From Gammaproteobacteria bacterium (GTDB lineage Bacteria; Pseudomonadota; Gammaproteobacteria; UBA4575), in contig JAQWYM010000022.1 of NCBI GenBank assembly GCA_029253965.1, forward strand, positions 1-38,286: 38,286 bases of DNA, read 5' to 3'. This document shows positions 35,726 through 36,714 of the stretch, in pieces (position 1 is the stretch's first letter; each line of letters begins with the position of its first letter). Below the pieces are notes generated by a model. The model had not been told where the DNA came from and made no database searches. It worked only from the letters and a program-made list of their open reading frames with translations. A program made the translations under genes and the position numbers.

Positions 35726-35993
35726 ATTTAAACCTATATTCTATTGAAATCGCTTAAAATTTAGTGAAGAACAGGCGCTGACACCGCTTAACCGGTGATA
35801 GCTTGAGCTTGTTTAATTCACAGTTGCCATCAGTCCGCGTATTATGGCAAAAAACTGCGGTGCATGTATGCCCGTGGCGTTAAACTTAATGATCTAAAAG
35901 CTAGGCCCTTGGCGACCTCGATTACTCGATAGCGCGCTTTAGTCTACTCGGGCTAGATTGATACTAATTACTAAAGAATTTCAGGAATCTGTT

Positions 35994-36611
35994 ATGAAAA
36001 TTACTGCCACTTTTGCACTGTGTGCTAGCCTCCTTTTGAGCACCAGTGCCTTTGCAGACTCACGTACACCAGAGCAAATCATTGAGCAGACCTCAAGCGA
36101 AGTACTGTCGATAGTTAATCAGCAGGCAGATCGTATCCGCAATGAAGCCGGCTACGTGAATACGGTTATCGATGAAGTTATTTTACCGATTATTGATCTG
36201 CAGGCGATGGGACGTTTAATTCTGGGGAAACACTGGAAGACCTCTACAAGTGAGCAGCAACAACACTTTATTAAAGAGTTTAAATCCATGCTGGTACGTA
36301 CCTATGCAAAGTCGATTGCAGATTATGGTCATGCCAAAGTCATTATCATGCGTGACGTGGAACAAAAATCGAAGAAATTCCATATGGTTCATACTGAGCT
36401 TGATCTAGGTTCAGGTGCGCCGATGAAAGTGACCTATGTTTTCCGTCAAAAAGATGCTGCATGGCGTGTTTTTGATCTCGCCGTGGATGGGCTTAGTTTA
36501 GTTAAAAACTTCCGCAGCAGCTTTGGTCAAGAAATTACTGAGACCTCACTAGAGGCCTTGATTGATAGAATCGCTAACACTAATATTCAGGCGGCTACGC
36601 CGTCTACTTAA
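35994..36611 (+). CDS. mlaC: Phospholipid-binding periplasmic protein MlaC
   Basis: The ATG at 35994 is chosen because AGGA stands 8 bases before it, and the product begins with a clear signal peptide: MKITATFALCASLLLSTSAF then ADS. The mature protein (about 183 residues) has the Ttg2D/MlaC fold with RTPEQIIEQTSSEVLSI, VILPIIDLQAMGRLILGKHW and VDGLSLVKNFRSSFGQEI. It shuttles phospholipids between the outer-membrane MlaA complex and the inner-membrane MlaFEDB transporter. Here mlaF, mlaE, mlaD and mlaB are not adjacent, unlike the usual operon. Confidence 0.93.
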   Translation: MKITATFALCASLLLSTSAFADSRTPEQIIEQTSSEVLSIVNQQADRIRNEAGYVNTVIDEVILPIIDLQAMGRLILGKHWKTSTSEQQQHFIKEFKSMLVRTYAKSIADYGHAKVIIMRDVEQKSKKFHMVHTELDLGSGAPMKVTYVFRQKDAAWRVFDLAVDGLSLVKNFRSSFGQEITETSLEALIDRIANTNIQAATPST

Positions 36612-36714
36612 GATTGGCTCGGTCACTCAAGCTGCCGGCAGTTAGTCGTTGTTGACGACAACTGCCATTAAATCCACATTGGCTTGAATGGCCGCCCTAG
36701 CTAGCGATTCACTT

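Follow-up and report, generated by a model that had tools for sequence, protein, structure and literature searches.

Pqi and Let, MCE systems other than Mla, transport phospholipid across the bacterial envelope and depend on MCE-domain proteins. The Mla system of E. coli comprises six components (MlaA-OmpC, MlaC and MlaFEDB), and, according to previous studies, MlaC takes phospholipid from MlaA and hands it over to MlaD (PMC10245069; PMC11289387), while the direction and mechanism of the system are disputed (PMC10665443). In a survey of 1083 genomes, MlaEFD was regarded as the core to which MlaABC was added later, and the survey section makes no mention of the inverse case, i.e., the MlaABC side without MlaEFD (PMC10665443). 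As well, MlaA and MlaC without MlaFED were not described in the available portions of the literature matches listed for Mla terms. A reduced Mla is known from Veillonella parvula, which keeps a minimal MlaEFD (MlaE, MlaF and MlaD) without MlaA and MlaC (PMC10665443).

The locus compared here with these systems lies in the window, the whole stretch of 38,286 nucleotides that was analysed, and contains the following features:

34775..35725, minus strand: yrbG, Na/Ca exchanger family (Pfam PF01699), the divergent gene bordering the ancestral mla locus
35726..35993: gap of 268 bases between yrbG and mlaC, by synteny the site of mlaF, mlaE and mlaD in complete relatives
35817..35845, plus strand: promoter-like element TTCACA-17-TATTAT, ending 148 bases 5' of mlaC
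35994..36611, plus strand: mlaC, 205 aa, intact, with a Sec-type signal peptide judged by eye
36612..36714: gap of 103 bases between mlaC and murA, by synteny the site of mlaB in complete relatives
36715..37974, plus strand: murA (Pfam PF00275), bordering the ancestral mla locus downstream
from 37968, plus strand: hisG

Gene reading of the window confirmed the earlier note in that mlaC stands alone between yrbG and murA, with gaps of the two sizes it had given, neither of which holds a further mla gene. For mlaC and murA, the starts given are the ones that align with the starts in the congeners, that of murA being set from L055 and L056. In common with the E. coli system are the MlaC family and fold, the chromosomal site and, in the genus, an acidic-tailed MlaA. 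However, the genus gives no match to MlaD or MlaE, and mlaF and mlaB, for which the window locus was examined, are absent there, so that the genus has no known energy input or inner-membrane acceptor. Like V. parvula, the genus has a reduced Mla, but the inverse one: MlaC is kept, as is MlaA in the sister species, and among the components of a minimal MlaEFD (MlaE, MlaF and a long MlaD), MlaE and MlaD were not found in the three congeneric genomes and no mlaF lies at the locus. Whereas Pqi, Let and a Brucella Mla-Pqi chimera (PMC12436622) move phospholipid across the envelope, no MCE domain was found in these three genomes.

The product of mlaC belongs to the MlaC family and has the predicted MlaC fold, as judged from its Pfam score, its sequence matches to MlaC-type proteins in the PDB and its structure model. 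It matches Pfam MlaC (PF05494) with 151.3 bits (E 2.7e-44) over profile positions 1-165 of 166, i.e., with a nearly full-length domain. The AlphaFold2 model (pLDDT 82.5) matches solved MlaC structures, with E 1.8e-12 and TM 0.77 against E. coli 5uwa, and all 12 PDB structure matches at E <=0.001 (E 5.5e-13 to 2.0e-8) are phospholipid-binding or toluene-tolerance proteins of the MlaC/Ttg2D type.

The window organism, whose group is presumably marine, is represented by a 1.465 Mb assembly (G000) of 88 contigs that is 83% complete, in which a profile search found no MlaE, no MlaD/MCE domain and no MlaA. A single absence from this genome is weak because of its completeness and contig number. MlaE and MlaD were likewise not found by profile search in the congeners G001 and G002 (91% and 77% complete; all three genus assemblies are fragmented, at 77-91%), yet MlaA was found in both, and its absence from the first assembly may be an assembly gap. 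The controls for the MlaE, MlaD and MlaA profiles were positive in 4, 4 and 2 of 14 named genomes, and family members match the same MlaE profile at E 1e-71 to 1e-75. The earlier note had held that a complete mlaFEDB elsewhere would indicate a simple rearrangement; MlaE and MlaD were found nowhere in the three congeneric genomes, so that relocation of the two is unsupported and was rejected on these searches.

Two observations support loss at the locus: relatives with mlaFEDCB carry it at the syntenic site, and two other species show pieces of the operon beside an intact mlaC. In nine complete-operon loci of the family (G004 and eight others), yrbG is divergent from mlaF-E-D-C-B at the same site, and murA follows the operon in eight of them, the contig of the ninth, L078, ending before murA. 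Because relatives hold the operon at this site and the genus searches were negative, the missing genes were lost here and, in the case of MlaE and MlaD, did not move elsewhere. The absence of mlaF, mlaE, mlaD and mlaB that the earlier note had listed for the locus stands, but ibaG, listed with them and likewise looked for at the locus, is not part of the loss, since the interval between mlaB and murA leaves no room for it in eight of the nine loci read with a complete operon.

Deletion remnants, which the earlier note had proposed to look for at 35726-35993, were not detectable: in a six-frame profile search, the gaps of G000-G002 gave nothing above 1.1 bits. A 13-residue antisense MlaE match downstream in the gaps of G000 was taken as chance. 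Fragments are present in other orphan loci. In G013, queries from family members revealed a C-terminal mlaD fragment directly 5' of mlaC (40 residues, 57.5%); 3' of mlaC lies a fragment of mlaB that contains a stop (58 residues, 26%). In G020, remnants were revealed with queries from G153, an operon-keeping relative of the same family. They derive from mlaF (52 residues at 46%, with three stops), mlaD (69 residues at 41%, with one stop) and mlaB (18 residues at 67%); the order is F-D-C-B, and the mlaC among them is intact. For each of these five fragments, none of 500 shuffles scored as high as the real sequence, counting best hits on the sense strand only. By contrast with these, mlaE showed no excess over shuffles in G013 and G020, and neither did mlaF in G013, 22 of 500 shuffles reaching its score. 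An independent profile search recovered both mlaD fragments (21.6 and 11.8 bits), which lie above the highest score of 60 rounds of shuffling (9.2), while the mlaB (7.6) and mlaF (3.8) fragments fell within the shuffle range. G010 and G018 also gave short MlaE-like matches and G007 an MlaD-like one, and in the MlaE-negative G058 the 2 kb gap 5' of mlaC was free of fragments at E 1e-3. The fragments around the intact mlaC of G020 and G013 indicate that its neighbours decayed and mlaC was spared.

The orphan state recurs among the relatives. In a fixed sample of 55 genomes, profile searches found MlaC in 50, MlaE in 41, MlaD in 41 and MlaA in 43. Thirteen of the 50 MlaC-positive genomes are without MlaE and MlaD, i.e., G000, G001 and G002; G007, G010, G013, G016 and G018 of genus g6; G017; and G020, G021, G043 and G049 of other families. 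The mlaC reading frame is intact in all 13 (each locus was read, with gene names assigned partly by eye), MlaA is kept in 12, and at 11 of the loci mlaC has yrbG or kdsD on one side and murA on the other. In G020, mlaC precedes an ibaG-like ORF, which is followed by murA. The state is also present in assemblies reported as 97-100% complete (G007, G020, G021, G043 and G049), and the MlaC of G021 (E 2.8e-21) and G049 (E 3.0e-31) is divergent.

MlaA follows MlaC, not MlaE, because all 43 MlaA-positive genomes have MlaC and MlaA is found in 12 of 14 MlaE-negative versus 31 of 41 MlaE-positive genomes. The five MlaC-negative genomes are without MlaA, and the association of MlaA with MlaC has a hypergeometric p of about 2e-4, calculated by hand and ignoring relatedness.

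Several further observations were made on these genomes. G043, a 3.5 Mb genome reported as 100% complete and without MlaE or MlaD match, carries an mlaA-mlaC pair away from the usual site (L066 8401-9788). The reverse gap also exists: besides the window organism, in which MlaA was not recognised either, G006, G034, G039, G044, G051 and G052 have MlaC and MlaE and no recognised MlaA. Two MlaC matches each are present in G003, G005, G008, G011 and G014, and the second paralogue of G003 lies away from the mla locus (L073 3351-3989). In the 0.9 Mb genome G049, an AsmA-like ORF, with weak matches below the cut-off of the YhdP profile, is located near the orphan mlaC (L065 3483-5483 and 8873-9538). 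As well, lptC is missing between kdsC and lptA (window 33170-33261) in the three congeneric genomes and G017. The LptC profile matched nothing in these four or in G049, and it matched the other 10 of the 15 genomes searched; the loss of this subunit of LPS transport thus goes together with that of mlaFED in these lineages, whereas no such coincidence is seen in three g6 genomes that were searched or in G020, G021 and G043.

A class-wide sample of 187 genomes, for which at least 95% completeness was requested and in which the 83% complete genome of the window organism was included, was searched for MlaC and MlaE, which were found in 177 and 165 genomes, respectively. Sixteen of the 177 MlaC-positive genomes, spread over 14 families, are without MlaE (two of them, G175 and G204, were deduced by subtraction), and this is an upper estimate of true orphans, since PF05494 may cover MlaC paralogues and the sample was searched for these two proteins only. 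Five of the 16 (G000, G020, G021, G043 and G049) are shared with the 13 above, and the locus of one of the other 11, G058, was read. In a tree of six flanking proteins, complete genomes separate g1 (the genus of the window organism), G017 and g6 from one another, with supports of 93 and 79 at the nodes relevant to G017. Because the AU test does not reject a tree in which g1 and G017 are joined (p 0.098), we count two or three losses in the family instead of three, in addition to losses in other families.

Previous studies showed that the acidic tail of MlaA recruits MlaC in E. coli (PMC10719372; PMC10245069), that the MlaA tail and an MlaD loop share one cleft on MlaC (PMC10245069; PMC11289387) and that the MlaA and MlaD footprints on MlaC overlap (PMC10245069). 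An acidic C-terminal tail is present in all seven orphan-lineage MlaA proteins read, out of 12 genomes with MlaA. At the residues named in these papers, MlaC from nine orphan and nine complete members of the family was compared, leaving position 124 as well as position 84 out of the counts (in the numbering used, E. coli has S at 84 and K at 83, versus K84 in PMC10719372; the other 17 named residues agree). Residues of the genus unseen in complete relatives occupy 28 of 173 mature MlaC positions. They include two of the seven shared-cleft positions (90 and 130) and three of the nine positions of the MlaD face (134, 147 and 179), a number reached by 1659 of 10000 random sets, and the MlaD face is changed at 1 of 9 positions in G017 and at 0 of 9 in g6. 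A relaxed or altered MlaD-contact face was therefore rejected, there being no enrichment over random columns, and the MlaC sequences give no hint that contact with MlaD was lost; the overlap of the MlaA and MlaD footprints may explain why the MlaD face shows no excess of change. Against ready binding of MlaA, the three congeneric genomes have Q in place of R90, a residue of the charged patch to which the tail of MlaA binds in E. coli; R is present in nine complete relatives and six other orphans of the family. The acidic tail makes a contact between MlaA and MlaC in the orphan lineages plausible.

The mlaC gene of the genus is under purifying selection. Its dN/dS in the three genus pairs is 0.065, 0.056 and 0.077, with a dS that is above 1 and rough in two of them, and these values are within the range of the neighbours murA, yrbG, kdsC, lptA and kdsD in the same pairs (0.029 to 0.099). 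In g6, three measured pairs gave 0.044, 0.083 and 0.131. Two pairs of complete relatives gave 0.042 and 0.032 at dS near 2, which is lower than in the genus; since murA and yrbG are also lower in the complete pairs, there is no clear sign of relaxation on the orphan mlaC.

The hexamers of the promoter-like element, TTCACA and TATTAT, are identical in all three congeneric species. The element agrees at 23 of 32 bases with TTCACT-17-TATGAT located 5' of mlaF in G004, a score reached by 0 of 100 shuffles (best 21), while its agreement with G009, G012 and G015 (21, 20 and 21 of 32) does not exceed that of shuffles, and G006 is matched best by another part of the window, off the element. The gap 5' of mlaC in G017 agrees with the region upstream of mlaF at the corresponding element at 26 of 32 bases in G006 and 23 of 32 in G004, values outside the shuffle control, which covered the window element. 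A consensus promoter scan alone remained at chance level, with 2 found versus 1.6 expected. TTCACA-17-TATTAT is possibly the former promoter of the mla operon, and the similarity suggests that the deletions left mlaC under it.

On balance, we lean towards the view that the inner-membrane MCE/ABC half (mlaF, mlaE, mlaD and mlaB) was lost and that MlaA and MlaC were kept as a working unit by a non-MCE route. After the loss, mlaC would probably stay under the old operon promoter, and its product would most likely still be loaded with phospholipid by MlaA. Unloading of MlaC would then need no ATP-driven MCE acceptor and could proceed passively, through direct exchange with the inner membrane, or by transfer to a different periplasmic lipid protein. 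Both the MlaA-MlaC interaction and this unloading step are what we infer. Against this view, one group states that E. coli MlaC cannot off-load when the ABC transporter is missing and that it is presumably filled with lipid in that state (PMC10719372); the lack of an MlaA match in the assembly of the window organism and the Q at position 90 in the genus also count against it. It is also conceivable, and we hold this tentatively, that MlaA and MlaC form a self-standing two-protein route that several lineages retained when the MCE transporter was lost, in which MlaC draws phospholipid from MlaA, with an ATP-free exchange that takes place directly with the inner membrane or via an AsmA-type bridge.

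A rather unlikely alternative is that MlaC has gained a new partner of non-MCE type in the inner membrane or spanning the periplasm, most plausibly a member of the AsmA family such as YhdP, so that lipid would follow an MlaA-MlaC-YhdP route. In E. coli mlaA* cells, YhdP was reported to affect phospholipid flow (PMC8593681), and the YhdP profile matches all 15 genomes searched, i.e., the 13 orphans and two controls (above the cut-off in 13, with G002 and G049 below it), and TamB was not found in the three congeneric genomes. However, YhdP is equally present in both controls with complete Mla, and TamB was also not found in the complete relatives G005, G006, G008, G009 and G011. Neither protein is specific to orphan MlaC, because genomes with complete Mla show the same pattern, and both were discarded as its signature. 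Moreover, yhdP and mlaC are on different contigs in the window organism, and in G049 the AsmA-like ORF, although about 3.4 kb from mlaC, lies behind mreBCD-like genes (named by eye).

Recruitment of MlaC to a task free of MlaA, e.g., carrying another lipid, appears improbable. The lack of an MlaA match in the assembly of the window organism and the change of R90 to Q in the genus would fit such a task, as would the 7 of 50 MlaC-positive genomes without recognised MlaA and the extra MlaC paralogues in several genomes. Yet MlaA occurs in both congeners and in nearly all orphan genomes (12 of 13), its acidic tail is kept in the seven proteins read, and mlaC sits at the ordinary mla locus and has entered no new operon.

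There is similarly little reason to expect that the missing mla genes exist but were overlooked, either in assembly gaps or because MlaD and MlaE are too divergent for the profiles. The incompleteness of the three assemblies (83% in 88 contigs for the window organism, 91% and 77% for its congeners) speaks for it, but the genes are absent in all three congeneric genomes at a syntenic site with both flanks intact, the MlaE profile is strong in the family, and the orphan state extends to the assemblies reported as 97-100% complete. That MlaC is a vanishing relic, still present by chance, is very improbable: the rest of the operon is gone and lptC is lost too in the genus, but dN/dS is 0.056-0.077 over three species, the promoter-like element is kept, and mlaC is retained in several lineages, with an intact ORF in 13 of 13 orphans, even amid the decayed neighbours of G020 and G013.

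In this genus, the part of Mla that the survey regarded as a later addition outlives the MlaEFD core (PMC10665443). Genomes with MlaA and MlaC and without an MCE transporter, in which mlaC is under strong selection, are direct test material for the mechanism of Mla: either MlaC unloads in another way, or it serves the outer membrane with no need of unloading at the inner membrane. Should the self-standing route of MlaA and MlaC hold true, the energised MlaFEDB would be optional in these bacteria, an addition to the pathway and not its core. Kept intact and under strong selection, the lipid shuttle MlaC may work without its usual inner-membrane motor in these uncultured bacteria.
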